64,000 nucleotides of DNA, taken from assembly GCA_902802115.1 (NCBI GenBank), contig CADCKW010000005.1:62001-126000 (forward strand). Direction: 5' to 3'. The position numbers were made by a program, and so were the translations under genes. Below the pieces are notes generated by a model. That model did not search any database, had not been told where the DNA came from, and was given only the letters and a program-made list of their open reading frames with translations. Positions 1-64,000 of this stretch are shown here, in pieces (positions within the stretch are counted from its first letter, which is position 1; every line of letters starts with the position of its first letter). The DNA is from an uncultured Pseudomonadota bacterium (GTDB lineage: Bacteria > Pseudomonadota > Alphaproteobacteria > Rs-D84).

Positions 1-1050
1 ATCCAAAATAATTTCGCTGTTGCCAGTTCCTTTGAATTCTTCGAAAATAACTTCGTCCATTTTGGAACCTGTATCAATCAAAGCCGTTGCAATAATGGTC
101 AGCGACCCGCCACCTTCGATATTACGTGCGGCACCAAAGAATCTTTTTGGACGTTGCAAAGCGTATGCATCGACACCACCGGTTAAAACCTTGCCTGATG
201 ATGGCACACATGTATTATATGCACGACCCAAACGGGTAATAGAATCCAACAAAATGACAACATCTTGACCTGATTCCACCAAACGTTTTGCCTTTTCGAT
301 AACCATTTCTGCGACCTGGATATGACGTGCCGCCGGTTCATCGAAAGTGCTGGATATAACCTCGCCTTTGACACTGCGTTGCATATCAGTCACTTCTTCG
401 GGACGTTCATCAATCAGCAACACAATCAATTTTACATCAGGATAATTTGTCGCGATTGAGTGAGCAATATTTTGCAACATAATTGTTTTACCGGTTCGTG
501 GTGGTGCAACAATCAACGAACGTTGGCCTTTACCAGTCGGTGAAATTAAATCAATAACACGTGCGGTTAAATTACGTCCTTTGTCTGTATCGTCTGGGAC
601 CTCCATACGCAATAATTCATCAGGATACAATGGTGTCATATCGTCAAAAGAAATACGATGACGCAACTTTTCAGGGTTATCACCATTAACCTTTTCAATG
701 GTTTCCAACGCAAAATAACGTTCTGATTCATTTTGTGGCGCCTGGATACGACCCTCGACATAATCGCCAGTTTTCAATCCATACTTTTTAATTAAATTTG
801 GTGACACATATAAATCATCAGGCCCCGCCAAATAATTACTTTCTGGCGCGCGCAAGAACCCAAATCCATCAGGCAACCGTTCCAACACACCATCGCCGAT
901 AAGAACGACATCTGCGTCCAACGCATAGACACGCATAACGGCGAACCTCAACTGTTGAACATTTAATTGTGAAGGATTTTCAATCCCCATATCTTCCGCC
1001 ATTTTCAACAACTGTTGCGGCGTTTTAGCCTTTAATTCATTGATATTCAT
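1..1050 (-). CDS. rho: Transcription termination factor Rho (3' end outside window)
   Basis: Hexameric RNA-dependent ATPase helicase that ends transcription. I translated the minus strand from the ATG at 1050; 350 codons lie in the window and the C-terminus is cut by the window edge. The N-terminal helical domain begins MNINELK, followed by the cold-shock-like RNA-binding domain (DGFGFLRAP, about residues 61-69). The ATPase core has a Walker A APPRTGKT near 182-189, [10 protein letters not shown] downstream, and the R-loop area ([13 protein letters not shown]). The start is supported by AAGGGA upstream. It is the next gene after the DGR reverse transcriptase in the same direction. Confidence 0.97.
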
Positions 1051-1145
1051 AAAATTATCCCTTAAAAAATTTTGAAGATTATATCGATGCAGAGAACCCA
1101 CACCGCTTTTAGATACCACCATTATAATACAAACAGATTAAAATG

Positions 1146-2105
1146 TCAAGAATCATCGAACCAGAACTTATCTTTGATAAACCTGGACGCTTTTCCGCCG
1201 AATTCGCGACCGACGGTTGATTGGATTTTTCGTTTTAACCGCCAGCAATTTGCCCATTTCATCCACCCATGATACGCGGCCAATTGCCCCACAGATTTTG
1301 CAGAAAAATCATGATAACGGGCGATATTCAATACAGAATTTTTAATACGTTTTGCGGCAGATTTTCGCAACAAAATAAAACCGTTAAAATGTCGATAGCC
1401 GATAAAATCGAATCCGCGCGACACCGGATAAACGGAACTGCGTGAAAAATCCAGCATCAGTTCATTTTGGACAAAATGCAAAATTTTTTTACGCACGCGC
1501 CACAAATCGCGTTTATTATTACCGAACAAACAGAAATCGTCGCAATATCGAATATAATCGCGCCAGCACAATTTTTCTTTGACGAAATGGTCTAATTCGT
1601 TCAAGAACACATTTCCAAACCATTGTGAAGTCAGGTTTCCAATTGGGACATTTTTTTCACCCCCGCAAGAATCGATAATATTGTCCAGCAATCGCAGAAT
1701 ACGCCGGTCTGCAATTTTTCGTCGCAACACGCGTTTCATCACATCGTGTCGAATACTGGGGTAAAATTTACGAATATCGCATTGTAAAACATATTTATTT
1801 CGCCGCACGAAATCCATTGCGCGTTGTGATGCGGAATGCAGTCCGCGTCCAGGGATACACGCGAACGAATCGCGCACAAAAGTTTTTAACCAAATAGGCC
1901 CCAACACATTGACCAGCGCATGATGCAAAATATGATCAGGATACAGTGGCAACACATAAATATTGCGTTCTTTGGGTTCATATATAGTTTTAATAACATA
2001 TGCGGACGTTTTAAAATTACCACTGATGATATCAGCTTTTTTTGCAGCGATATTAAAATTTTCAGGACTGATAAAAACGTCCCACAGATTATTTACAGTT
2101 TTCAT
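1146..2105 (-). CDS. DGR-type reverse transcriptase
   Basis: Reverse transcriptase of 319 residues, the size of DGR enzymes. Visible motifs: NLWDVFISPENF at the N-terminus, typical of the family; the first catalytic Asp in CDIRKFYPSI (about 109-118); IGNLTSQ at 155-161, the DGR form of motif 4 (group II intron enzymes have QGxxxSP); the catalytic YCDD at 187-190; and GFDFIGYRHF at 231-240. There is no maturase or HNH domain. The start codon overlaps the stop of the upstream accessory ORF as ATGA, suggesting coupled translation. In a DGR this enzyme makes cDNA from the TR RNA with errors at adenines and the cDNA replaces VR. The adjacent TR/VR pair supports the call independently. Confidence 0.96.
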   Translation of the reverse strand: MKTVNNLWDVFISPENFNIAAKKADIISGNFKTSAYVIKTIYEPKERNIYVLPLYPDHILHHALVNVLGPIWLKTFVRDSFACIPGRGLHSASQRAMDFVRRNKYVLQCDIRKFYPSIRHDVMKRVLRRKIADRRILRLLDNIIDSCGGEKNVPIGNLTSQWFGNVFLNELDHFVKEKLCWRDYIRYCDDFCLFGNNKRDLWRVRKKILHFVQNELMLDFSRSSVYPVSRGFDFIGYRHFNGFILLRKSAAKRIKNSVLNIARYHDFSAKSVGQLAAYHGWMKWANCWRLKRKIQSTVGREFGGKASRFIKDKFWFDDS

Positions 2106-2456
2106 GAAAAAGAATAATATTTATCGATTTTTGTGACACATGTTCGAAAAGGTATATTGTCGTGAATTTCTTGGATTTGATTAGATAAAACGGAACTGCC
2201 GGTAAAAGCGACACATACGACATTATCGCACACGAATTGGATTTGCAGGCAATCGGAACCTTCGCGTTTTTTTGATTTAGTGATACGGAAATCGACGACC
2301 AGAATTTCTTTGTTTAAAATTTCGTCCAACCGTTTTTTCACCCCCGGCATCGTCCAACCGTTTTTTCACCCCCGGCAAAGGCAATTTATCTTTGGCGAAC
2401 ACAGCGAATTGCGGACAAGCCTCGGCGTGTAATCTGGCGATTTCGTCCAGTGTCAT
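2102..2456 (-). pseudogene. DGR accessory gene, split in two by a 28-bp tandem duplication
   Basis: Two overlapping ORFs read in different frames. The first starts at ATG 2456 behind a good GGAGAG site (MTLDEIARLH...) and ends at 2277 after a frame change. The second starts at ATG 2350 (MPGVKKRLDE...) and ends at 2102, overlapping the RT start. The frame shift is caused by the exact 28-bp repeat at 2322-2377. Removing one copy gives one 108-residue ORF. Its C-terminal half looks like a small beta-rich domain (EILVVDFRITKSKK, VAFTGSSVL, PFRTCVTKIDKYYSF), reminiscent of phage single-strand-DNA-binding-like proteins. It does not look like the all-helical Avd protein of known DGRs, though it sits in the same place. 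Function unknown; the ATG made at the junction could let the second half be made alone. Confidence 0.7.
2322..2377. repeat. Exact 28-bp tandem duplication
   Basis: Two perfect copies, 2322-2349 and 2350-2377, each beginning TCGTCCAACC and ending CCCCGGCA. Twenty-eight is not a multiple of three, so the duplication breaks the DGR accessory gene and creates an ATG at the junction. Confidence 0.95.
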
Positions 2457-2478
2457 ATCTCTCTCCATCAATTGCACT

Positions 2479-2604
2479 TTATAATTCAGGGTTCGGGCCT
2501 TCGCCACGATACAGAACTGACACTACCAGCCCAAATCCCTCCTGTGCATTTATTTCAATTACCAAAGTGCAAAGTTCAATCGACTCTGGCATATGTGGTC
2601 GCAT
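2479..2604 (-). CDS. Possible 41-residue ORF between TR and the DGR accessory gene
   Basis: ATG at 2604 preceded by AAAGGCGGAG at good spacing, then MRPHMPESIELCTLVIEINA and a short hydrophobic stretch ending in PNPEL. It lies in the 3' spacer between TR and the accessory gene, in the same direction. I do not recognise it. It could be a real small protein or a chance ORF inside the TR transcript. Confidence 0.25.
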   Translation of the reverse strand: MRPHMPESIELCTLVIEINAQEGFGLVVSVLYRGEGPNPEL

Positions 2605-2742
2605 TACTCCGCCTTTGATAAAATGGCGACAATTCGAAACAGGCAAACCTGGTTGCCTGAAAAGCACTTTGTTTATGCTTTGTCCCCACAGGTTGGCAAA
2701 ACTCTATCCGTCACAAATGGACAGAACCCATAATCCAAAGGA

Positions 2743-2877
2743 GCCGCAAACCCCAACACCGCCGAACGGAACGACGCGTTGTCGCGGACGTTGTTCGCGC
2801 AGTTGTTCGCACAGTTGTTCGCACAATTGGCAGCCGAACTGTTCGTGTTGTTGAAGACCCACGGGGCCCGGGACGAA
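2743..2877 (-). repeat. DGR template repeat (TR)
   Basis: 135-bp sequence, non-coding in practice, that aligns end to end without gaps to VR at 3978-4112. On the minus strand it carries AAC/AAT codons in clusters (FNNTNSS, NCANNC in the VR frame; 11 Asn codons). These are the codons whose mutation at adenine gives the widest residue choice without stops. The 3' 38 bp, ending in GGGGTTTGCGGC, are identical in both copies and would serve as the initiation-of-mutagenic-homology region. All 16 differences from VR are at TR adenines. Confidence 0.96.
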
Positions 2878-2937
2878 AACACGCCGACCACCCAATTGCA
2901 CCCAACGGGGAACACCTGGGGTTTTACCAGTAATGCG

Positions 2938-3080
2938 CCAATTCCAAGGGCTTTTTTTCACCCATGGAATTGAATTTTGTTTTGCCGAATCTGTTTTTGT
3001 GGTGCGGGGGCACCACATGTTCCATGGGGTCCTGTCATTTAAAAAAACGGGAGTTGGATTCGGGAATCCCATGGAACCGT
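2938..3080 (-). ncRNA. Structured segment just upstream of TR, probably 5' part of the TR RNA
   Basis: On the minus strand, in order: a long-range pairing of GGTTCCATGGG with CCCCATGGAAC (about 3080 to 3023); a perfect hairpin GTGGTGC-CCCC-GCACCAC (3016-2999); and CAATTCCATGGG-N10-CCCTTGGAATTG (2972-2938). No credible protein is encoded here. DGR template RNAs need structured flanks in studied systems, so this is probably part of the functional TR transcript. That role is inference. Confidence 0.4.
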
Positions 3081-3455
3081 TTTTACCTGTAGAAAGCCTT
3101 AAATACATTTTTTCCAATGATTTTAATTTTGAACCATGTGGGGAATTTTTGTCAGTGTTCAGTTTCCAGACTTCAATGTTCAGTTAATGTGTCGGCCACA
3201 GGCCGACGGCATCATCTGTACTCTGTACTCTGAACTCTGTACTCTGTTCACTGTCCCAAATGGTTATAAATCACAAGAATTTTTGTTTTATATCAAGACC
3301 CGGCAAAACAAAAACTTTAAAACCTTTATCCTTTTTTTATAAATGCACTGTTAAACTTTCCACCGGGCGAACCCGATGGGACCCTTGGTATTCTGTTGAA
3401 ACAATGCGACCTTTTTTTTTGCATTGCCCAACGGAAACTGTTATTCCGCCCTATC

Positions 3456-3580
3456 GCGACCCTTTAATTCCGCCCCATTGGGGAGGGGGACCACCCATAG
3501 CCTTGGCGACGGGTGGTGGCGGGGGTATCCAAGAACCCTCCCCGCCACTTCGTGGCCCTCCCCTCCACAGGAGGGGAATT
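3456..3580. repeat. Intergenic palindromic repeat, copy 1 (second copy at 37775-37898)
   Basis: Shares GCGACCCTTTAATTCCGCCCC, then GAGGGGGACCAC, GTGGTGGCGGGGGTATCC, AACCCTCCCCGCCACTTCG and CCCTCCCCTCC..GGAGGGGAATT with 37775-37898. The unit is made of nested GC-rich inverted repeats. No protein is encoded. It lies in the long gene-free stretch between TR and VR. Confidence 0.8.
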
Positions 3581-3857
3581 TTGGTGCATCTGTGTCCCCT
3601 TCTTTATGAAAGAAGGGGTGGCTGTGCAGCGTCAGCGGAACAGACGGGGTAATTGTGATTGTTTTTTATGGTGACTGCGCTTTCGCTTCGTCACCGGGCA
3701 CAATTACCTCCCCCTTTGTTCGCTTTCGCTCACTCGGGGACTCCTTCTTTCGCTGGGACTTCGTCCTGCGCGGCACTCATGACAAATCGTCTGCGCTGCG
3801 CTTGACTCTTTTACTCCTAGTCATAAAGAAGGAGACGAAATTTTGGCACCATTTGCG
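3571..3857. repeat. Direct repeat downstream of the DGR target gene (partner at 5191-5405)
   Basis: Nearly identical to 5191-5405, but with about 70 extra bp at 3752-3820. It contains several palindromes: CCCCTTCTTT-ATG-AAAGAAGGGG, GGTAATTGTG...CACAATTACC enclosing GGTGAC...GTCACC, and the half-sites TCCTTCTTTC / AAAGAAGGAG. No transposase ORF is present. The two copies flank the variable-protein gene in the same orientation. Confidence 0.85.
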
Positions 3858-3904
3858 CTCGCAATGACAAAAATGCGTTGCATTTTTGTTAATCTGGCGC
3901 CATT

Positions 3905-3967
3905 TGCCACCGGGGGTGACGCCCCCGAACCCCCCGTTTACGCCCCCGGCGCTAACGCTCTGGGGGG
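3905..3967 (-). other. GC-rich inverted repeats just after VR
   Basis: Immediately 3' of the target gene stop (minus strand) lie CCCCCCCAG-AGCGTTAGCGC-CGGGGGCG and GGGGG-CGT-CACCCCC. Known DGR targets often carry a GC-rich hairpin or cruciform just after the variable repeat that raises retrohoming; this is in the right place. It could also belong to the repeat family seen elsewhere in the window. Confidence 0.4.
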
Positions 3968-3970
3968 GTA

Positions 3971-5095
3971 TCAATTTGCCGCAAACCCCAACACCGCCGA
4001 ACGGAACGACGCGTCGCCGCGGACGAAGTACGCGCAGTAGTGCGCACAGTAGGACGCACAAAGGGCAGCCGAACTGTGCGTGCTGAGGAAGACCCACGGG
4101 GCCCGGGACGAATCCCGAACAGGTGTGAATTCCCCATCTAAACCGACCCCGGTCATCTGGCACCAGCATTGTTTATATGTGCTGCGTTCGAATCCCTCCT
4201 TGTCAGCCTGGCCAACCGGATTTGGCAACACAGACCAATTTTGTTGTTTGGTTGCGTCTAATTCTGACAATGGGTGTGCATATGTTCCGGCAACATTTGT
4301 GCATTTTGATGTGCCGTATATCACACCGACATTGTCGGGGTTGCTGGTATCGCGGAATAATCCTGCGGCTTCGTCGCCCTCATACACGACCGCCCATTCG
4401 CCGTCCGCCAATGTATGAAAATTGCCAAACGTATTGGTATCGCGACATGGTTCGGCATAAATTGTGTCGGTTGTATATGCGTGGCCAGATTTGGTTTTGC
4501 AACTGTTATAAAACCGGTTATATGTTGATGTGCTGCCGTCGACGTATGTTTTGCGCCATGCAGAATCCCCATGATAATACGCGTTATAATATATCCATTT
4601 GTCGCCATCTTGGCTGCCTTTGGCATTGGTTGCCCAATTTAATTTTTTCATTGGCATCAACAAATCGCGCATAGGGTCCTTTATCACATACCAATGCGGA
4701 GTATTATTATTATCTTCGACCAGCAAGCATTGCCGGAATTTCGGGCAATTTTCCGTATTTGTTTCATCGGTATAATCGTCCGCCGGGCGGGTTTGTTTGG
4801 TCGCCTGCAAATCCGCAATCGCTTTGGTTTGGTTGATAGTGTTTGTGACAACCGACCGAATTGCCGCAATCGTGTCGTTTAAATCATTTACAACCGGATT
4901 AAACCGCGCCGAATTATATGCGGTCGTCGCAATGCGGATTTGGGTGGATTCTTCGGTCTGTTCATTATTTTCGGGGTCAGTATTTTCTGTTTGTCCAGCT
5001 TCGACCCCAACCGTTGTGCCATCTTCGGCATATGCCATACCGGTTGTAATCAAAAAACATAAACCAACAAAAAATTTCAATAATAATTTATTCAT
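3971..5095 (-). CDS. DGR variable target protein, secreted, shares module with 44960-46393 and 63103-64000
   Basis: 374 residues with a signal peptide (MNKLLLKFFVGLCFLITTGM, cut after AYA). Residues 52-138 are a module (IRIATTAYNSARF, TNTINQTKAIADLQATK, CLLVEDNNNTPHWY) also found in the two LamG-like proteins of this window. The C-terminal half is unrecognised and has several Cys. Residues 328-373 are encoded by VR (SSRAPWVFLSTHSSAALC to SFRSAVLGFAA). Placement of VR at the extreme C-terminus and Asn-biased template codons match DGR ligand-binding proteins of C-type-lectin-like fold, but I cannot prove the fold. Start has AAGGGGA upstream. A long leader with two terminators and a repeat precedes it. 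Probably a surface-exposed hypervariable binding protein. Confidence 0.93.
   Translation of the reverse strand: MNKLLLKFFVGLCFLITTGMAYAEDGTTVGVEAGQTENTDPENNEQTEESTQIRIATTAYNSARFNPVVNDLNDTIAAIRSVVTNTINQTKAIADLQATKQTRPADDYTDETNTENCPKFRQCLLVEDNNNTPHWYVIKDPMRDLLMPMKKLNWATNAKGSQDGDKWIYYNAYYHGDSAWRKTYVDGSTSTYNRFYNSCKTKSGHAYTTDTIYAEPCRDTNTFGNFHTLADGEWAVVYEGDEAAGLFRDTSNPDNVGVIYGTSKCTNVAGTYAHPLSELDATKQQNWSVLPNPVGQADKEGFERSTYKQCWCQMTGVGLDGEFTPVRDSSRAPWVFLSTHSSAALCASYCAHYCAYFVRGDASFRSAVLGFAAN
3978..4112 (-). repeat. DGR variable repeat (VR)
   Basis: Gapless 135-bp partner of TR. In sense orientation the changes are AAC to CTC, AGC, CAC, TCC, TAC, CAC, TAC, TAC, TTC and GAC, AAT to CTT, and GAC to GGC: 16 substitutions, every one at a TR adenine, altering all 11 Asn plus one Asp. 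The flanking parts are identical. Homology stops two codons before the gene's stop. Confidence 0.97.
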
Positions 5096-5190
5096 GTTTG
5101 TTTCCCCTTTTCTTTCTCTCTACTTATTTTTCCCCCATCGGCATCAATTGCCACACCACCAGCGCAATCCTTTAATTCCGCCCCTTATGC

Positions 5191-5405
5191 GAGGGGAATT
5201 ATTGGCACATCTGCGTCCCCTTCTTTATGAAAGAAGGGGTGGCTGTGCAGCGTCAGCGGAACAGACGGGGTAATTGTGATTATTTTTTATGGTGACTGCG
5301 CTTTCGCTTCGTCACCGGGCACAATTACCTCCCCCTTTGTTCGCTTGCGCTCACTCGGGGACTCCTTCTTTCATAAAGAAGGAGACGGAATTTCGGCACC
5401 ATTTG
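5191..5405. repeat. Direct repeat upstream of the DGR target gene
   Basis: Second copy of the 3571-3857 repeat, without its 70-bp extra piece. It lies between the second leader terminator (5455) and the target gene start (5095), so the mRNA must run through its palindromes. Confidence 0.85.
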
Positions 5406-5454
5406 CACTTTGTTCATCGTGCGGAATTCTTTCCTGGGAATTTTTTATTGACAT

Positions 5455-5550
5455 CAAAAAAAACCGTCAATACAATATTGAGCGGTCGGGGTGTTCAAAA
5501 ATCATCAAAACCATGTGATCGTGCGCCTTGCGGCAAACACCACCCAGACC
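5455..5550 (-). promoter_or_regulatory. Leader block 2 with terminator 2, copy C (DGR target gene)
   Basis: Minus strand: P1 5' strand GGTCTGGGTG (5550-5541), a hairpin with a GCAA loop (GTGTTTGCC-GCAA-GGCGCAC), the conserved TTTTGATGATTTTTGAA, and P1 3' strand CACCCCGACC (5493-5484). The ACC of the last strand also begins the terminator stem ACCGCTCAATA-TTG-TATTGACGGT, followed by eight T (5487-5455). P1 and terminator cannot form together. Homologues lie at 44805-44912 and 62693-62795. Confidence 0.75.
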
Positions 5551-5591
5551 GTTCTGTCTGTGGTCGTGATTCAATCACAATTCAGGTTGGC

Positions 5592-5816
5592 AAAAAAATT
5601 GCGCCAACATTTTAAAAAATATGTCGGTGCAACACTTGAAACTGTTATTTAATACTTTTTTTGACGCATTACATCACGAATCAATCAAACGAATAAAAAT
5701 CTATCCGAATCGTTTTTTGGTTTCGATGCAATGCAAGATATTGGAATAACGATACAAATCTTGCACCGGGTTTTGAAGGGCTTTTGAAGACCCCGAACTC
5801 AATTCCCATTGAATTC
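5592..5816 (-). ncRNA. Leader block 1 with terminator 1, copy C
   Basis: Minus strand from 5816: a GGGA-capped hairpin (GAATTCAAT-GGGA-ATTGAGTTC), then GGGGTCTTCAAAAGCCC, GGTGCAAGATTTGTATCG and TTATTCC, and further down AAAACGATTCGG. Terminator 1 at 5632-5592 is TTGCACCGACAT-N10-ATGTTGGCGCAA plus seven T. Same order as at 44578-44744 and 62454-62630. It may be a riboswitch-like domain with its own terminator, or an independent small RNA. Confidence 0.7.
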
Positions 5817-5822
5817 AAATCC

Positions 5823-5852
5823 AGTATAGAAAATTCATTTCCATTTCCGCAA
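5823..5852 (-). promoter_or_regulatory. Promoter of leader C
   Basis: TTGCGG (5852-5847), 18-bp spacer, TATACT (5828-5823). The start would fall about at the block 1 hairpin. The same TTGC-N18-TAT arrangement precedes the other two block 1 copies. Confidence 0.65.
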
Positions 5853-5915
5853 GTATTTTTTATGGGATTTTTTCGCCCCCACACACAACCGGAGGGGAAT
5901 TAAAGGGTCACAACA

Positions 5916-5943
5916 AAAAAACCCGCAAATGCGGGTTTTTTTT
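5916..5943 (-). terminator. Intrinsic terminator of tig
   Basis: CCCGCAAATGCGGG (5922-5935) flanked by A-run and T-run, so active in both directions. Confidence 0.85.
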
Positions 5944-7240
5944 ATTTCACTTCGGCTTGTTTGAACAATTCGTCAGCATTGACCGTTTTTTCTTTCGTTT
6001 TTACAGACTTTAACATTTCGTCCAAAGCCTTGCGTTCAAACAACATTCCACGCAACATCGCAACCGCATTTGGATTTTTGTTATAAAATTCAAACACTTG
6101 TTTCGGTTCTGGGAAACGTGATGCCTCGGCCCAGATGGCGTTTTGCAAATCGTCACGTGTGACCTCGACCTTGTTTTTGTTGCCCCACTCTGCCAAAATC
6201 AATCCTAATTTTACGCGACGTTCTGCCTCTTTGCGTTCGGCTTTTTCGTCCCATTTATGATCATGGCCATGTTCGGCATTATGATGTTCGTGTTCATTTT
6301 TCGCCATTGACAATTCTTGTTCAACCAGATTTTCCGGCAAATCCAATTTAACTTTGTCAGCCAAAATATCCAACAATTCGTTGCGCATCGCACGTTGTGC
6401 CGCGTCCGCATATTGTTCGTTCAATATGTCGCGAATATGTTGTTTCAATTTTTCAACATCTTGGAATCCAACAGATTTTGCCAATTCATCATTTAATTCT
6501 GGCAAAATGTGTTTGCGAACCTCATGCACATAGGTTTCAAAACGCGCATCTTTGCCCGCCAAATTTTCCGCATGATAATCCGCAGGGAATTTGACATTTA
6601 CATCAAATTTATCGCCCGCACGATGCCCAATGATTTGGTCTTCGAATCCAGGAATAAATGCCCCAGAACCCAAAATCAAATGATGTTTTGATGCCTCGCC
6701 ACCTTGGAAAGCGGTGTCACCAACAAAGCCTTTGAAATCGATAACCGCGGTATCACCGTTTTGTGCCTTGTATTTTTCATCTTGTTTTTCGGCGGTGCTG
6801 CGACTGCGGCGGATATTTTCCAATGCAACATCGACCTCTTTTTCGTCCAATGTCGTGACAGGTTTTGTCACATTAAACTTTGTTAAATCGATTTCTGGCA
6901 ATTCTGGTAAAATATCAAATTCCAAAGAATATTCGACGTCCATGCCCGGTTCGAATTTTGCCAAATCAGCCTTTGGCGCACCAGCCAAACGAATTTTTTT
7001 ATCGTCCAGATACGCATTTAAATCGCGATTCATCAATTTATCAACAGATTCTTGCAATGCGTTCGCATTAAATTTTTGACGCAATACAGACATTGGAATA
7101 TGACCCGCACGAAATCCCGGCATCTTGGCGGTTTTACCGTATTCAGCCAAAATTTCGTCAGCCGCCGCCTGTAATTCATCGGCACCAATAACACCAGATA
7201 CAGAATAATGTAAATCTTTGATTTTTTCTTTTTTAAACAT
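5942..7240 (-). CDS. tig: Trigger factor
   Basis: Ribosome-bound chaperone and prolyl isomerase, 432 residues. The ribosome-docking signature appears as GFRAGHIPMSVLRQKF near 41-56. The FKBP-like domain runs about 150-245 (DTAVIDFKGFVGDTAFQGG, GSGAFIPGFEDQIIG, VKFPADYH), and the C-terminal helical chaperone arms follow. A His-rich stretch (HEHHNAEHGHDHKW, about 316-329) lies in the C-terminal domain and is unusual; it may bind metal. ATG at 7240 behind AAGGAT. The leader of the DGR target gene starts soon after its terminator. Confidence 0.96.
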   Translation of the reverse strand: MFKKEKIKDLHYSVSGVIGADELQAAADEILAEYGKTAKMPGFRAGHIPMSVLRQKFNANALQESVDKLMNRDLNAYLDDKKIRLAGAPKADLAKFEPGMDVEYSLEFDILPELPEIDLTKFNVTKPVTTLDEKEVDVALENIRRSRSTAEKQDEKYKAQNGDTAVIDFKGFVGDTAFQGGEASKHHLILGSGAFIPGFEDQIIGHRAGDKFDVNVKFPADYHAENLAGKDARFETYVHEVRKHILPELNDELAKSVGFQDVEKLKQHIRDILNEQYADAAQRAMRNELLDILADKVKLDLPENLVEQELSMAKNEHEHHNAEHGHDHKWDEKAERKEAERRVKLGLILAEWGNKNKVEVTRDDLQNAIWAEASRFPEPKQVFEFYNKNPNAVAMLRGMLFERKALDEMLKSVKTKEKTVNADELFKQAEVK

Positions 7241-7342
7241 ATGTTTATCCTTTTATACAAACCCGCCCCCACGACCAACAACGGACATGGGGGATATGGG
7301 TATCCCAATGTATGTTGCAACAACAAACACCGGGCAAATATA

Positions 7343-7870
7343 TTAACGTTTGCTGAACTGTGTCGAACGACGTGCCTTGCGGACACCATAGTGCTTACGT
7401 TCAACGACACGACTGTCGCGGGTCAAGAACCCAGCAGCCTTTAATGCCGCACGCAATTCAGGTTCGCGTTTTTCCAATGCCTTGGAAATACCATGTTTGA
7501 CGGCACCAGCCTGACCAGATAAACCACCGCCAGAAACAAATGCCACAATATCATATTCTGTTTCGCGTTTTGCAACACCAAATGGTTGTGCGATAATCAT
7601 TTGCAACACAGGACGACGGAAATATGTTGTCATCGCAACACCATTTACAGAAATATTGCCCTTGCCTGGCAACAAATATACACGTGCCACAGAATCTTTA
7701 CGTTTTCCGGTTGCATATGTCGCACCAGTCAATTTAACATCCACCGCCACAGCACGTGGTGCAGATTTTGTCGCCGCAACCGTTTTGACCGATTTTGTCG
7801 CGGTTGTTTTTGTCGCAGTTGTTTTTTTGGCGACTGTTTTCTTTGCAGTTGTCTTTTTTGCTTCTGTCAT
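7343..7870 (-). CDS. rpsI: 30S ribosomal protein S9
   Basis: 175 residues. The S9 core starts near residue 50 ([20 protein letters not shown]) and ends with the family's [12 protein letters not shown] tail that reaches the P site. The first 45 residues are an added Lys/Thr/Ala-rich segment (repeats of AKKT and ATKT), longer than in most S9 proteins. It directly follows rplM with 3 bp between stop and start, the usual L13-S9 pair. Confidence 0.97.
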
Positions 7871-7873
7871 ATC

Positions 7874-8344
7874 TTAGCCTCTTTTGTTCTTGGGATTCAG
7901 GCTTGCAAAATCAATCACAACTGGATTTTGCGCACTGTGTTTATGTTCCGCACCGGCATATACATGTAATTTTGTTAAACGTTTATCTGCCAATGCAACC
8001 GCTGTTCTGCGACCCATCATGCGTTTCACAGCATTTTTAACCAATAATTCTGGTTTTTGTTCGCGCATTTGACCCAATGTCCGTTCTTTCAAACTGCCCG
8101 TCCAAGCAGAGTGCCAATAAAATTTATCTTTGTCAGCCTTGTGACCAGACATCGCAACTTTGGATGCATTGATAATGATAACATGGTCACCACAATCCAA
8201 ATTCGGTGTCCATGTCGGTTTGTTTTTACCGCGCAGGATGTTTGCCGTATATGCCGCCAAACGACCCAATGTGCAGTCTGTTGCATCAATCAAATACCAT
8301 TTTGATTCTAATTCGCAACCTTTTAAAGATTTTGTTGCTGCCAT
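7874..8344 (-). CDS. rplM: 50S ribosomal protein L13
   Basis: 156 residues. It shows WYLIDATDCTLGRLAAYTA, GDHVIIINASKVAMSGHKAD and KNAVKRMMGR, the L13 signatures. First gene of the rplM-rpsI pair; ATG at 8344 with AAGGGT upstream. Confidence 0.97.
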   Translation of the reverse strand: MAATKSLKGCELESKWYLIDATDCTLGRLAAYTANILRGKNKPTWTPNLDCGDHVIIINASKVAMSGHKADKDKFYWHSAWTGSLKERTLGQMREQKPELLVKNAVKRMMGRRTAVALADKRLTKLHVYAGAEHKHSAQNPVVIDFASLNPKNKRG

Positions 8345-8428
8345 AATTTTACCCTTTGGTTATTTTCAAACGACGATATTATTACCCAACACCGCAAAAA
8401 AGTCAAGAAAAATCAATACGGTATTATA

Positions 8429-9289
8429 TTACCGTAATTTTTTATTTACATTATCAACAAATTTTTCAGCGGCGGCAATCGCATTTTCCATTGTATCAAA
8501 TGCCGCACCCATACCATAAACCTGGACACAACCCGGCAAATTTATAAAATCTGGACTTACACGGAATGGTTCAATTGCGGTCATATTAAATGTCCCCCTG
8601 TCACATAACTTTACAAAGCAACGAATATTCGTTCCCATAAATGCTTCACGTGGAATATAATCGGCATTTTCATCAAAAACGATAAAACCTTTTGAATTTT
8701 TTTCTGCAATTTCACATGCTTTGGCCTGGTGCAACACCATTTCATAGGTACTGCGTATCATTAATTTCAAGAAAGAACTTATATAATTTGCAGTTTTGTA
8801 AAAAACTTCATCACGTTCCTCTGGGGTCATGGTTCCATAATTTTTCGCCGCAATTAAATGCGCCAAAGTATTTGGATATTTAATACGCCCATAATTATCT
8901 GACAAATCCATAAGACGCACAAATTCGTCATCTAACTTTTGAACCGCATTTTGTGCATCAGTTTTTGCCGCAAAAAACTTGTTAATTATATATTCATAAC
9001 CAATATAATCCCATAACAATCCAAAACTGGCATACTTTGTTCCGTCCGCCCGACATTTTGCCCCAACCTGTTGATGATGGTCAAATTCGCCACAACCAAT
9101 ATCAAAAACCAACCCTTTAAAATCATTTGGCACACGCGCAACACGTTTAATTTCACGCACATCATCAACAATACCAACAATTTTCAACAACGCAGCCGCC
9201 AAAACATCATCAGAATGGAAATGACCATTATGGGTAATAACACCATTTTTCGCCATTTCTTTTAATCTGTTGATTTTTACAAATTCCAT
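8429..9289 (-). CDS. MYG1/UPF0160-family metal-dependent hydrolase
   Basis: 286 residues from the ATG at 9289, chosen because GAGG lies 8 bp upstream. The N-terminus has the metal-binding pattern THNGHFHSDDVLAAALL and later FDIGCGEFDHHQ, as in MYG1/GAMP proteins related to DHH phosphoesterases. Eukaryotic MYG1 is reported to be a 3'-5' RNA exonuclease; the bacterial role is not settled. The C-terminus has SPDFINLPGCVQVYGMGAAF, also typical. Stands alone between rplM and the tRNA-Ser region. Confidence 0.85.
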   Translation of the reverse strand: MEFVKINRLKEMAKNGVITHNGHFHSDDVLAAALLKIVGIVDDVREIKRVARVPNDFKGLVFDIGCGEFDHHQQVGAKCRADGTKYASFGLLWDYIGYEYIINKFFAAKTDAQNAVQKLDDEFVRLMDLSDNYGRIKYPNTLAHLIAAKNYGTMTPEERDEVFYKTANYISSFLKLMIRSTYEMVLHQAKACEIAEKNSKGFIVFDENADYIPREAFMGTNIRCFVKLCDRGTFNMTAIEPFRVSPDFINLPGCVQVYGMGAAFDTMENAIAAAEKFVDNVNKKLR

Positions 9290-9351
9290 GGTATGACCTC
9301 TTTGCCACGAAAAATAACACAAAACACGCAAAAATCAACAAAATTCCACAA

Positions 9352-9417
9352 GATTCAAACCAATCGACACATTCACTATAAAAATAAAACCACCTGTTTG
9401 GTGGTTTTATTTTTATT
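9352..9417. repeat. Duplicated 65-bp block with terminator hairpin, copy 1
   Basis: GATTCAAACCAATCGACACA through AAACCACC-TGTTT-GGTGGTTT, repeated at 9582-9645 with few changes. The hairpin reads as an intrinsic terminator on the minus strand (T-run at 9387-9380). Confidence 0.8.
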
Positions 9418-9454
9418 TGGGCCCCGCAAAATTGATAAATTTTGTGGGCAATTC

Positions 9455-9555
9455 TGGCGGAGCGTGTAGGATTTTCCTCGACACCGTTGGTGTCTGCGGG
9501 GAAACCGTAACGATTTGATTGCGTTTGCACTTATCAAATCTACTTGTTTTGAACC
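9455..9555 (-). other. Duplicated tRNA-Ser(GCT) 3' end split by a structured insert (copy A)
   Basis: 9455-9473 repeats exactly the last 19 bases of the neighbouring tRNA-Ser(GCT), including CCA. The T-loop is interrupted: where GGTTC should meet AAATCC there are 77 extra bp (9474-9550). On the minus strand the insert reads AAAACAAGTAGATTTG, a hairpin GATTTGAT...ATCAAATC, GTTACGGTTT, CCGCAG and a second hairpin GACACC-AAC-GGTGTC. A related insert interrupts a duplicated tRNA-Ser(CGA) end at 14672-14782. Confidence 0.75.
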
Positions 9556-9581
9556 TTGGGCGTGGATTAAAAATCCACAGG

Positions 9582-9645
9582 ATTCAAACCAATCGACACA
9601 TTCACTATAAAAATAAAACCACCTGTTTGGTGGTTTAATTTTTAT
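9582..9645. repeat. Duplicated 65-bp block with terminator hairpin, copy 2
   Basis: Second copy of 9352-9417. Its hairpin AAACCACC-TGTTT-GGTGGTTT (9616-9636) lies directly downstream of the tRNA-Ser(GCT) gene and acts as its terminator. Confidence 0.8.
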
Positions 9646-9734
9646 GGCGGAGCGTGTAGGATTTGAACCTACGGACCGCATTACTACGGTCACGGATTAG
9701 CAATCCGCTGCATTTACCCCTCTGCCAACGCTCC
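9645..9734 (-). tRNA. tRNA-Ser (anticodon GCT)
   Basis: Class II cloverleaf: acceptor GGAGCGT/ACGCTCC, anticodon loop in CGGATTGCTAATCCG, long variable arm, T-loop GGTTCAAATCC, encoded CCA at 9647-9645. It reads AGC/AGT codons. Confidence 0.96.
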
Positions 9735-29233: not shown

Positions 29234-29764
29234 TTATCTTTTGTTTTGTTGTGTTTCGGCAATTTTTTCAATCATGATTCTGTATCCATTGATTTCCAAC
29301 GGTTTGCCAGCATAATCAAATAAATTTGCATTTTGTAATACGTTAACTAATGATGCAGTCACATCAGGTTTATATGAAAACAGATTATGTAAAAATCTAG
29401 TATCGTTATCTAAAAAATACATACTGTGGTATGCACACATTTTTGCACATCGTTCAGCTGTATCGTATGTTTTTACCTTAATCCACCTGGAAAGAAGACC
29501 ACTGTTATATCTTACACGACACCATGCATGCGGGCCGTGTTTATATGAAGGCAGCCCCACACCAATCCTTGGATACGGGCTTTCTGATGACATTACGTGC
29601 ACTTCGATAATATTCGGAAAATCACGTTGTATATGGTCCATATGCATACGCAAATCATCAGGACACCAGATTGCTTGATGGCGATAGTGTTCTGCGGGTT
29701 TTCCGCCGACCATTGTTCCGTCAGAAATAATTTTAATATATTCTGTATTTGGAATATCTGTCAT
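29234..29764 (-). CDS. Unknown protein, paralogue of 28450-28851 with extra C-terminal part
   Basis: 176 residues from ATG 29764. The N-terminal 60 residues match the 28450 protein (the VGGKPAEHYRH region, HMDHIQRDF, HVMSSE). The remainder (TRFLHNLFSYKPDVTASLVN, NGYRIMIEKIAETQQN) is unique. The next gene upstream ends at 29778, so the group 29778-29234-28960 is likely one operon. Confidence 0.75.
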   Translation of the reverse strand: MTDIPNTEYIKIISDGTMVGGKPAEHYRHQAIWCPDDLRMHMDHIQRDFPNIIEVHVMSSESPYPRIGVGLPSYKHGPHAWCRVRYNSGLLSRWIKVKTYDTAERCAKMCAYHSMYFLDNDTRFLHNLFSYKPDVTASLVNVLQNANLFDYAGKPLEINGYRIMIEKIAETQQNKR

Positions 29765-29777
29765 GATTGCGAACCTT

Positions 29778-30914
29778 TTATCTGTTATGCTCCAATTTGC
29801 AAGCCTTGTGCGCAGCATCCAGTTTAAGTTTAAGAGCATTCATATCAGTTTTGTTTGCCAGTTTTACATCTATACGATTTTGGAATAATGTATCACGTCC
29901 TGTCGCAGATATCGCGTGATTCCAATTTTCAACACTTGTTTTCATAACCAAAGGTTTTACTTCTTTATAGACCGGGCAATTTTCCAAACAAACATCGCAA
30001 TCACAGCATACATCAAAAGATGCTGGATCATCAAATCGCACAAATGTAAATTTTCTTTGTTGCGGTTGCGCTTTTTTTCTGAAAGCCAAACTATTTCTAA
30101 CATCGTTTAACATTCCGCCATCAACTTCGGTTGCAGAAACGTTTGTGCCACGTGTAAAAGCCTCGTAATGACGCTTTAAACTTTCAATACCGTATTTTTC
30201 AGCATATGCAACATAGCACGCTTTACGTAAACGGTCTGGGCAATCACTGTCCATTAAATAATGGATTGCTGGATTTTCTCCCCAACATTCTTTGTGGAGC
30301 CAATGTGTTGCGGTTGCCATAAAGACATCAATAAAATTTTGTTCGCTTAAACAATCATATTGCATCCATTTCAATGCACGATAATTTGTGCGTGCAGCCA
30401 ACCTGCAAATTTCTTTATATTTCCCTGATTCTAAAAATTTAGGATCAACCAATGCCATTTGTCGTGCATATACGTCGCCCCGTGTGTCATCAATGTTTGC
30501 CAAACAATATTCCGCACATACCGCTATCTTGGCCAATTCGAAATATGTTTGTTTGGTCAATTTATGTTCAACCGGTTTTACCAATACAAACAGCAATCCT
30601 TCACGTGATAACGGTGTTTTGAAAATACGGATATATTGTTCGTTATTGATGTGGTATTTTACAGGATCAACAAACATAATATTTTCATGTGCACGAATAT
30701 TTGCATCGGTACAATTTATAAAATCTTCACAAATTTCGGTATATTCTTCGGCATCTTTTGGACCACCAATCATATCCATCATTTCCATATAGGAACGCAA
30801 ATTATAGCCTTTGTGGAAACCTTTCTTGGCAAAATCTTCAACCATTTGTCTGTGTTCTTGGCGTGCTTTTTCACGCATCATTTTTTGCATAGGACTTTCA
30901 TGAAAATTTGACAT
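29778..30914 (-). CDS. Unknown protein with a Cys cluster resembling an iron-sulfur site
   Basis: 378 residues from ATG 30914 with AAGGAA upstream. Mostly helical and charged. Near residue 315 lies VCCDCDVCLENCPVYKE, close to the C-x2-C-x3-CP spacing of ferredoxin-type sites but with only one such cluster; it could hold a cluster or zinc. No transmembrane segment or signal peptide. First gene of the small-protein operon. Function unknown. Confidence 0.75.
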   Translation of the reverse strand: MSNFHESPMQKMMREKARQEHRQMVEDFAKKGFHKGYNLRSYMEMMDMIGGPKDAEEYTEICEDFINCTDANIRAHENIMFVDPVKYHINNEQYIRIFKTPLSREGLLFVLVKPVEHKLTKQTYFELAKIAVCAEYCLANIDDTRGDVYARQMALVDPKFLESGKYKEICRLAARTNYRALKWMQYDCLSEQNFIDVFMATATHWLHKECWGENPAIHYLMDSDCPDRLRKACYVAYAEKYGIESLKRHYEAFTRGTNVSATEVDGGMLNDVRNSLAFRKKAQPQQRKFTFVRFDDPASFDVCCDCDVCLENCPVYKEVKPLVMKTSVENWNHAISATGRDTLFQNRIDVKLANKTDMNALKLKLDAAHKACKLEHNR

Positions 30915-44744: not shown

Positions 44745-44804
44745 ATGCACGATGTAAGTATTGAACAATAACTCCCAATGATTTTAACCCCAAACCAAAT
44801 TTTT

Positions 44805-44912
44805 GGTCAGGGTGCCACATTCACGAAAGGTATGTGGGATCATTGTTGTATTTTGATTTTTCGAACACCCCGACCGCTTCTCTCGTTAGCGGTGTTTTTA
44901 TTTTTTGCGTTG
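44805..44912 (+). promoter_or_regulatory. Leader block 2 with terminator 2, copy A
   Basis: P1 5' strand GGTCAGGGTG (44805-44814), hairpin CCACAT...ATGTGG with ACGAAAG loop, TTTTGATTTTTCGAA, P1 3' strand CACCCCGACC (44866-44875). ACC of this strand begins the terminator stem ACCGCT...AGCGGT (44873-44893), followed by a T-rich run and a further TTTTTTGC-GTT-GCAAAAAA hairpin. Confidence 0.75.
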
Positions 44913-44959
44913 CAAAAAATAAAAATCACGCCACATACCAAAACCAAAAGGGGAGAAAG

Positions 44960-46393
44960 ATGAAGAAAATATTATGCGCGTTGTTGGGAATGTTGCTTGC
45001 CGGGACATCGTGGTCGGCCACCCTGCCCGCCGGTTATACGGAATTAGAATATATCGAAAGTACCGGCACACAATATATTGATACGGGGTATAAACCAAGC
45101 AATAACACAAAGATTGATATGACTGTAAGTTTTGCGAGTGTTGCTAATGGTCATATTTTCGGTTCGCGTATGACAAATACTGGTGGTGGTGGTTTTGCTG
45201 TTGCTACTATAACTAATATCTTTGCGTTTGATTATAACGGAGACCGTGTATATGGCATTTCACCTACTGTTGGTACTGTTTATAGAATTGTAAAAAATGG
45301 CGCTGAAAATCAAATATCTTATGGAACAACTGTGAATACATATTCGAACAGTGCGTCTACATTTTCAGTCGATGCAACGATGGCGCTGTTTGGTATAAAT
45401 ACTGCCGGTACAATAACTTCTTCGGCTGCCAGTATCAAAATATATTCTGCTCAGATAGAAGAAAGTGGTGTTCTTGTTCGTGACTTTGTTCCTGCTCGTC
45501 GTGACAATGACGGTGTAATTGGTATGTATGATATGGTTAATAATGAGTTTTATACAAACCAAGGCACCGGGACATTTACCGCCGGTCCAGAGGTTTCAAT
45601 CCGCATTGCGACGACGGCGTATAATTCGGCGCGGTTTAGCCCGGTGGTGACAGAATTAAACGACACGATTGCGACAATTCGGTCGGTTGTCACGAACACA
45701 ATTAACCAAACCAAAGCCATCGCGGATTTACAGGCAACCAAACAAACCCGCCCGAACGAGAACTGCCCCGCCGGCAAAAAGTGCCTGCTGGTTGAAGACA
45801 ACGACGGTATGCCGCATTGGTACGAGATTATCGAAAACGCATACGGCCTGCCAAGTGGATATACGGGGTTGGAGTATATCCAAAGTACAGGAACACAGTA
45901 TATTGATACTGGTATTTCTATAACAAGTGGCAACTTTCAAATAGATGCCGATATGCAATTTACATCTATTGCTAGCCCACAATATTTTGGCATCTTTGGT
46001 GGTGGTTATTTTGGTATAACAGACAACTATTTTGCAGCCGGGGGTAGAACAATTAGCAAGTCTGCAGATACTCAACGGCACAAATTTATTTTTTCATCAA
46101 TAATTGGTACAAATGTTTTGCTGAATCTTTCTATTGATGGAACAAATTACAATATTTCACGTGATGTTTCTGCAGGTAGAATTAATTTATTAGTGGTAGA
46201 TAACAGAGGTGCTCTTATGGGGGAAACGAAAGCAAAACTATATTCAGCACAAATATATAGTAATGGCACATTGGTTCGCGATATGATTCCTGCAAAAAAT
46301 GCAAGTGGTGTAATTGGTATGTATGATACGGTCAGCGGACAATTCTTTACAAACGCGGGTTCTGGAACATTTACCGCCGGACCAGAGATTTAA
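44960..46393 (+). CDS. Secreted protein with two LamG-like domains around the shared module
   Basis: 477 residues from ATG 44960 (AGGGGAG upstream). Signal peptide ends SWSA. Residues 23-210 and 297-477 are two related concanavalin/LamG-like domains, each starting YTELEYIESTGTQYIDTG or close and ending IGMYD...F.TN.G.GTFTAGPE. Between them, 213-291 is the module shared with the DGR target (SIRIATTAYNSARF, TNTINQTKAIADLQATK, CLLVEDNDGMPHWYE). No variable repeat is present. Probably a surface protein binding sugars or host ligands; that is inferred from the fold class. Confidence 0.85.
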   Translation: MKKILCALLGMLLAGTSWSATLPAGYTELEYIESTGTQYIDTGYKPSNNTKIDMTVSFASVANGHIFGSRMTNTGGGGFAVATITNIFAFDYNGDRVYGISPTVGTVYRIVKNGAENQISYGTTVNTYSNSASTFSVDATMALFGINTAGTITSSAASIKIYSAQIEESGVLVRDFVPARRDNDGVIGMYDMVNNEFYTNQGTGTFTAGPEVSIRIATTAYNSARFSPVVTELNDTIATIRSVVTNTINQTKAIADLQATKQTRPNENCPAGKKCLLVEDNDGMPHWYEIIENAYGLPSGYTGLEYIQSTGTQYIDTGISITSGNFQIDADMQFTSIASPQYFGIFGGGYFGITDNYFAAGGRTISKSADTQRHKFIFSSIIGTNVLLNLSIDGTNYNISRDVSAGRINLLVVDNRGALMGETKAKLYSAQIYSNGTLVRDMIPAKNASGVIGMYDTVSGQFFTNAGSGTFTAGPEI

Positions 46394-63070: not shown

Positions 63071-63102
63071 TTTGTTAAACAAAAACACAAAGGGGAGAAA
63101 AC

Positions 63103-64000
63103 ATGAAGAAAATATTATTTGTGTTAATCGGGTTGTTGTTTGCTGTGCCGGCTGTCGCAGCCACCCTGCCCGCCGGATATACGGAATTGCAATATATTGA
63201 ATCAACAGGAACACAGTATATTGATACGGGGGTTGTTGCTAAGAATAACATCTTAACCAATTGTAAATTTAATTTTATAAGCAGTGGTTCTGATGCCGAG
63301 GTTTTGTTTGGTATCTCTGCTGGTACTGGCAGTAGATATTGGTTTGGAGAGCAAAATGGTATATCGTTCATAGGTTTTAATGATGCTGCGAGTGGGCCCA
63401 CGAATATTGGGACTTCTGTTCATACGGTTTCTTTAAAGGCTGTGGAAAATTTAGAAAATGCACTGTTTATAGATGGAACAAGAACAAATTCTTTTGATAA
63501 TTTAACTAATCAAAGTGATAAATCAATTTATTTGTTTGCGTTGCGTTCTGGAAACGCGCCTGTATATGTAAGTAGTGCCAGGGTGTATTCCTGTTCTATA
63601 ACCAAAAACAACACCCTTGTTCGCAACTTCGTTCCAGCGAAAAATGCAAGTGGTGTAATTGGTATGTACGACACTGTTTCAGGGCAATTCTTTACGAACC
63701 AAGGCACAGGTGAATTTGTCGCAGGTCCAGAGGCTCCAATCCGCATTGCAACCACCGCATACAATACGGCGCGGTTTAGCCCAGTGGTGACGGAATTGAA
63801 CACCACTATCGCGACGATACGGTCGGTTGTCACAAACACTATCAATCAAACCAAAGCGATTGCGGATTTGCAGGCGACAAAACAAACCCGCCCAGATGAA
63901 ACCTGCCCCGCCGGCAAAAAGTGCTTACTCGTTGAAGACGACGCCGGCCAACCCCATTGGTACGAGATTATTGAATCTGCCAGTCGCCTGCCTGCCGGTT
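63103..64000 (+). CDS. Secreted LamG-like/shared-module protein (3' end outside window)
   Basis: 299 codons in the window from ATG 63103 (AGGGGAG upstream). Signal peptide MKKILFVLIGLLFAVPAVAA. Residues 22-206 are a LamG-like domain (YTELQYIESTGTQYIDTG; GVIGMYDTVSGQFFTN), 213-291 the shared module (IRIATTAYNTARF, TNTINQTKAIADLQATK, CLLVEDDAGQPHWYE), and a second domain starts at the window end (SRLPAG). Closest to 44960-46393; whether it also lacks a variable repeat cannot be seen. Confidence 0.85.
   Translation, partial: MKKILFVLIGLLFAVPAVAATLPAGYTELQYIESTGTQYIDTGVVAKNNILTNCKFNFISSGSDAEVLFGISAGTGSRYWFGEQNGISFIGFNDAASGPTNIGTSVHTVSLKAVENLENALFIDGTRTNSFDNLTNQSDKSIYLFALRSGNAPVYVSSARVYSCSITKNNTLVRNFVPAKNASGVIGMYDTVSGQFFTNQGTGEFVAGPEAPIRIATTAYNTARFSPVVTELNTTIATIRSVVTNTINQTKAIADLQATKQTRPDETCPAGKKCLLVEDDAGQPHWYEIIESASRLPAG

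Follow-up and report, generated by a model that had tools for sequence, protein, structure and literature searches.

The stretch of DNA analysed here, 64,000 nucleotides in length and called the window throughout, contains a cassette that is a genuine diversity-generating retroelement (DGR). The reading that we favour, with good though incomplete confidence, is a chromosomal DGR with local and trans homing and an OB-like accessory protein, the machinery of which was damaged after the last homing event and which is now probably silent. According to this reading the DGR reverse transcriptase (RT) would have copied the RNA of the template repeat (TR) into cDNA, making errors at adenines, and this cDNA would have replaced the variable repeat (VR) at the end of a gene for a secreted protein as well as, in trans, those of two further genes, a small OB-like protein assisting the RT in Avd's place. 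The RT, by a 26-aa internal deletion, and the accessory gene, by a frameshifting 28-bp duplication, would have been damaged after the last homing, leaving a cassette that is probably silent and VRs that would be frozen snapshots. Three things can be read from the DNA itself, namely the adenine-specific transfer from TR to VR, the fact that this transfer took place again after the nearest sequenced relative had branched off, and the additional targets; the machinery in the source genome is probably just broken. The mechanism is known and well supported, and what sets this cassette apart is its accessory protein, target domain and host.

On the minus strand the order is target gene, TR, accessory ORF, RT and rho, with tig, rpsI and rplM beyond the opposite end, these four flanking genes being presumed from sequence and family knowledge to be what their names say. 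The RT adjoins the gene of the transcription termination factor Rho (1-1122, minus strand) and the target gene adjoins that of trigger factor (tig, 5942-7240, minus strand), which bears out the setting between core genes given in the preliminary description. TR (2743-2877) and VR (3978-4112), both on the minus strand, lie exactly where that description had placed them and align over 135 bp without gaps and with 119 identical positions. It had also claimed that mismatches are confined to TR adenines in sense orientation, and indeed all 16 differences fall on the 25 template adenines (each reads T on the plus strand, that is A on the sense or template strand) while the non-adenine bases are identical, a distribution that would arise by chance among 135 positions with a probability of about 9e-15. 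In sense orientation eight of the template adenines are changed to T, five to C and three to G. The VR forms the C-terminal end of a 374-aa ORF (its last ~45 codons), in the frame of which none of the 11 template Asn codons is left unchanged and one Asp codon is altered too, again as claimed. The last 36 nt at the 3' end of the TR (2743-2778) contain no template adenine and occupy an IMH*-like position; the DNA hairpin downstream of the VR reaches only z=-1.5, and an Rfam search of the first 10 kb of the window returned a tRNA and no other match. In related loci TR/VR pairs have 294 mismatches at adenines and 10 elsewhere, adenines making up 553 of the 2943 template positions in these relatives.

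The RT (1146-2105, minus strand, 319 aa) lies ~640 bp from the TR, retains the IGNLTSQ and YCDD motifs and matches PHROG 1423 with E=7.6e-91; with the intact RT of a relative as query the best match among solved structures is the BPP-1 bRT (8ub7, E=1.5e-40). Together with the adenine-specific repeat pair this upholds the identification as a DGR made earlier. Retron, Drt/UG defence and group II intron RTs were considered as well and gave weaker scores, none of them near curated cut-offs, the TR/VR pair being decisive. It is the only RT-domain gene in the source genome, which comprises 949,878 bp in 7 contigs. The relatives of the RT come from gut and rumen metagenome-assembled genomes (MAGs), one of them named Candidatus Enterousia onthequi, from a genus of Alphaproteobacteria, and the host is a Candidatus Enterousia-type gut or rumen alphaproteobacterium with a 0.95-Mb genome. 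Among the papers covered by a literature search none links DGRs with Enterousia. Strong RT matches (E below 1e-50) occur in 17 of 59 genomes of the genus, the source genome included. A different DGR was observed in the same genus (genome G010, locus L021), with its VR (TR-like WSASSNENSN) in a predicted ATPase-type protein; the profile of the accessory family described below gave no match there. In a quick tree the Enterousia RTs cluster with viral RTs, the majority of which carry the OB-like accessory, and the RTs of BPP-1, phiWae15 and crAss phages fall outside this group, three long rows on its deepest branch (ANMV-1, phiWae15 and BPP-1) being of unsure placement.

How recently was the cassette at work? 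Since VR and TR agree at every non-adenine position, homing was recent. Moreover, the TRs of the window and of L031, the nearest sequenced relative, differ at two non-adenine bases within the repeat (GTCCC/GTCTC and GCTGCC/GCTGTC), and each VR has the base of its own TR at both sites while the adenine positions differ freely. The VRs of L032 and L033 likewise follow their own TRs at non-adenine sites and vary freely at adenines. Because each VR tracks its own TR in this way, homing has been ongoing since the lineages of the window, L031, L032 and L033 split, and the past activity stated in the preliminary description is thereby supported. That description had interpreted the cassette as a complete DGR that has been active; its nature as a DGR and recent homing stand, completeness is doubtful. 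Its minus-strand placement, the internal deletion in the RT, the accessory gene with its frameshift, the two remote VRs and the paralogous protein families had all gone unmentioned.

Compared to L031 and all other relatives the window RT lacks 78 bp in frame (junction at 2034-2035, minus strand), corresponding to 26 amino acids after residue 24, which are residues IKSKKSKKAVAKFLANRDKLLDKLRH of L031 and are kept in 111 of 111 RTs spanning this segment. The accessory gene (2105-2456, minus strand) is disrupted by a 28-bp tandem duplication, TGCCGGGGGTGAAAAAACGGTTGGACGA in two copies at 2322-2377 on the same strand, which shifts the reading frame in the alignment to L031, so that the N-terminal part (2292-2456) and the C-terminal part (2105-2374) lie in different frames. 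L031 has neither lesion and both genes intact, at ~94.6% DNA identity to the window over the 2-kb RT-to-rho segment and ~99% in the aligned stretches of RT and accessory DNA. With 26 conserved residues gone from the RT and a frameshift in the accessory gene, present activity is doubtful, and the function of the accessory protein would be lost in the source genome.

Both lesions are known from one assembly, and 28 bp lie within the assembly k-mer range, so that they could be assembly errors. It is therefore conceivable, though we give it a clearly smaller chance than real damage, that the living strain has a fully functional cassette and that the 78-bp deletion and the 28-bp duplication arose in assembly or are minor variants within a MAG. 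The source is indeed a 7-contig assembly related to metagenome-assembled genomes, homing was recent as judged from the agreement at all non-adenine positions, and the cassette is intact in L031. Against this, two independent lesions hit two genes of the machinery, with no sign of abnormality in TR, VR or the neighbouring genes, and both copies of the duplication contain two window-specific bases that are not seen in L031. In addition, decay is found in other genomes of the genus, with a split RT in G023, a mere RT remnant in G020 and an accessory gene kept without RT in G027; cassette decay therefore recurs within the genus. Real damage to the RT and the accessory gene seems likeliest. A cassette that is damaged and still works, because the RT can do without the missing residues and the accessory is dispensable or made by frameshifting across the duplication, appears improbable to us. 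Some RT activity could persist, given that the loss of 78 bp preserves the frame and leaves the catalytic motifs untouched, and roughly one DGR in four has no recognised accessory gene (PMC7290462), but the deleted segment is kept in every comparable RT and the accessory is retained in almost every relative. The idea that TR and VR stem from a simple gene duplication, together with diversifying selection or gene conversion and without retrohoming, deserves practically no credence, since dozens of independent TR/VR pairs next to DGR RTs have their mismatches limited to template adenines, even though a large paralogous domain family varies at these positions also in genomes without this RT.

The cassette has more than one target. 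Searching the genome with the TR revealed two further VRs on other contigs, C2:91257-91372 and C4:11118-11238, in proteins of ~176-179 aa that have no visible signal peptide. Over a 108-bp core the C2 VR differs from the TR at 12 adenines versus 3 other positions and the C4 VR at 16 versus 5. In both, a TTC near the 3' end has become TTT and similarity ends soon beyond, which would fit homing that does not reach past the initiation site. To judge from these alignments, one TR serves the local target and two remote genes. C2 also has a tandem paralogue, which is more diverged, and homologues on C1 and in the window (29237-29839, minus strand, 201 aa, without signal peptide) have no TR similarity, the latter apparently not being diversified. 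The signal-less target family also occurs in three genomes without RT match (G009, G019, G033).

The local target (3971-5095, minus strand, 374 aa) consists of a signal-peptide-like start, a module at residues ~50-140 and the Cys-rich C-terminal variable domain. It is bracketed by two long direct repeats (3595-3775 and 5216-5372, plus strand) that in the repeat comparison were 99% identical over 157 bp, in the same orientation and 1.6 kb apart, and no further full copy was found in the genome; a recombination event between the two copies would remove the target gene or double it. The Cys-rich domain, with the pattern CWC...WVF...C...C...C...FR, is common to all targets in these bacteria. Pfam gives no match for it, and hhalign detects no profile similarity to CLec-like targets of viral DGRs (Prob 0.2). 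In a model of 225 residues the variable stretch lies in a helix, the pLDDT of 51 being too poor for naming a fold, and Foldseek found no structural match with this model. The domain is present in 36 of 75 relatives. A maximum of 27 copies is found in G001 (L205-L215), a genome without RT match, where the paralogues by eye seem to differ mainly at DGR-type positions, and this seems to be a frozen repertoire or one made by duplication. The DGR may have been recruited onto a pre-existing domain family or may have seeded it. Some relatives have two VRs within one protein (L032) or VRs in two genes (L043), the cassettes of both these loci being intact, and in L050 the variable protein is a minimal one, with an ORF of 157 codons. 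In L038 an open frame of 3224 codons (reverse strand, ORF 2-9673), on the strand opposite to the RT, was observed to end in a DGR-diversified C-terminal domain. The ~90-residue module of the local target (IRIATTAYN.ARFSPVVTELN.TIATIRSVVTNTINQTKAIADLQATKQTRP...PHWYEIIE) is common to ~27 proteins of the 0.95-Mb genome, at 44765-46390 and 63079-64000 on the plus strand of the window and at ~25 further places. Most carriers have a signal-peptide-like start, the module often stands alongside LamG-like 'GYTELEYIESTGTQYIDTG' repeats, and it looks like a common module for surface anchoring or trimerisation.

Avd is common in DGRs and not universal. Known DGR accessories are listed as Avd, HRDC and MSL (PMC10053308), and lineage-3 DGRs such as that of crAssphage LMMB are without Avd (PMC7290462). 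In nearly all Enterousia-type loci an ORF of 108 aa stands between TR and RT, and its distribution covers almost the same genomes as that of the RT. Avd itself was rejected as its identity, as there was no Avd-type Pfam hit and the profile does not match BPP-1 Avd; bbp4 of BPP-1 and the ORFs following the RTs of crAssphage LMMB and phiWae15 were ruled out as homologues at the profile level. The accessory is a non-Avd family, which may already be included in the classes of Wu et al. 2018 (NAR). Its AlphaFold model (pLDDT 88.7) arranges strands and helix in the OB-fold order b-b-b-a-b-b, and OB folds make up most of the top VIA matches (RuvBL2 domain II, Z 7.2; SSB, 6.4; Rim1, 6.1; PriB, 5.7) over 65-69 residues with rmsd 2.3-2.9; as all Z values are at most 7.2 and thus below 8, an OB-like fold is likely rather than proved. 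Among 398 Pseudomonadota genomes drawn across the phylum the family was not found beyond the Enterousia type. An IMG/VR search with the accessory family alone yielded 116 relatives, and 78 of the 80 viral accessory loci fetched from these contain a DGR-type RT, in 76 of them followed by the accessory, which mostly overlaps the RT. In three viral loci found via the RT the accessory is fused to the RT C-terminus (L182, 4794-6293; L183, 2913-4586; L184, 4989-6641). Adenine-specific TR/VR pairs are present in 85 of 97 viral loci with RT, with 1536 mismatches at adenines and 52 elsewhere. The family also follows the RT in the archaeal viruses ANMV-1 and vir525, and weak matches (E ~1e-4) after the RTs of several phages of the lineage-3 kind suggest that its reach may extend to further phage DGRs. 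From gene position and co-occurrence we infer that this small OB-like protein supports the RT in the place that Avd holds in other DGRs.

It is tempting to go further, and we regard the odds as evenly balanced, to a branch of DGRs that would have been overlooked so far, present in viruses of archaea and bacteria and domesticated in Enterousia-type gut bacteria. In this branch the obligate partner of the RT, replacing Avd, would be a protein with an OB fold that binds single-stranded nucleic acids and is in some cases fused to the RT, and in the bacteria the system would have been retargeted from lectin-like to Cys-rich domains of the host's expanded families, including signal-less proteins. 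Many DGRs have no recognised accessory gene and how an RT works without Avd is a standing question, which becomes testable since this branch has a small, conserved and sometimes RT-fused partner family. On the host side, the DGR draws on an extensive multigene family in a gut symbiont with a reduced genome, and as cassettes decay repeatedly within one genus, close relatives allow a comparison of what hypermutation costs and what it brings.

How does the cassette compare to known systems? With the BPP-1 DGR (mtd-avd-TR-brt) it shares the placement of a target with C-terminal VR, a TR and an RT on a single strand, the family of the RT and the adenine-specific mismatches, but BPP-1 has Avd and a C-type-lectin target, whereas here another accessory family and a Cys-rich domain are found, on a cellular chromosome and with lesions in the RT and accessory genes. 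ANMV-1, vir525 and IMG/VR DGRs likewise have the accessory family beside the RT, and the lineage of the window clusters with many of these RTs. However, in viruses the accessory mostly comes after the RT (76 of 78) and in the window before it, and the viral targets are C-type-lectin-like, without kinship to the Cys-rich target of the window in the profile comparison. For ANMV-1 an ORF between target and RT is named Avd, and the accessory-family gene is not discussed in the available part of its description (PMC4372165). DGRs of Treponema denticola also use a single TR for local and remote surface-protein targets have a non-Avd accessory between TR and RT and are patchily present (PMC4891356). 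The accessory is however HRDC there and OB-like here, and of the targets here two have no signal peptide. Similarly, the DGRs of Thiohalocapsa PB-PSB1 act on targets in trans and include degenerate loci whose machinery is missing or pseudogenised (PMC10907252), the difference being several RTs and transposon damage there as opposed to a single RT-domain gene and small lesions here.
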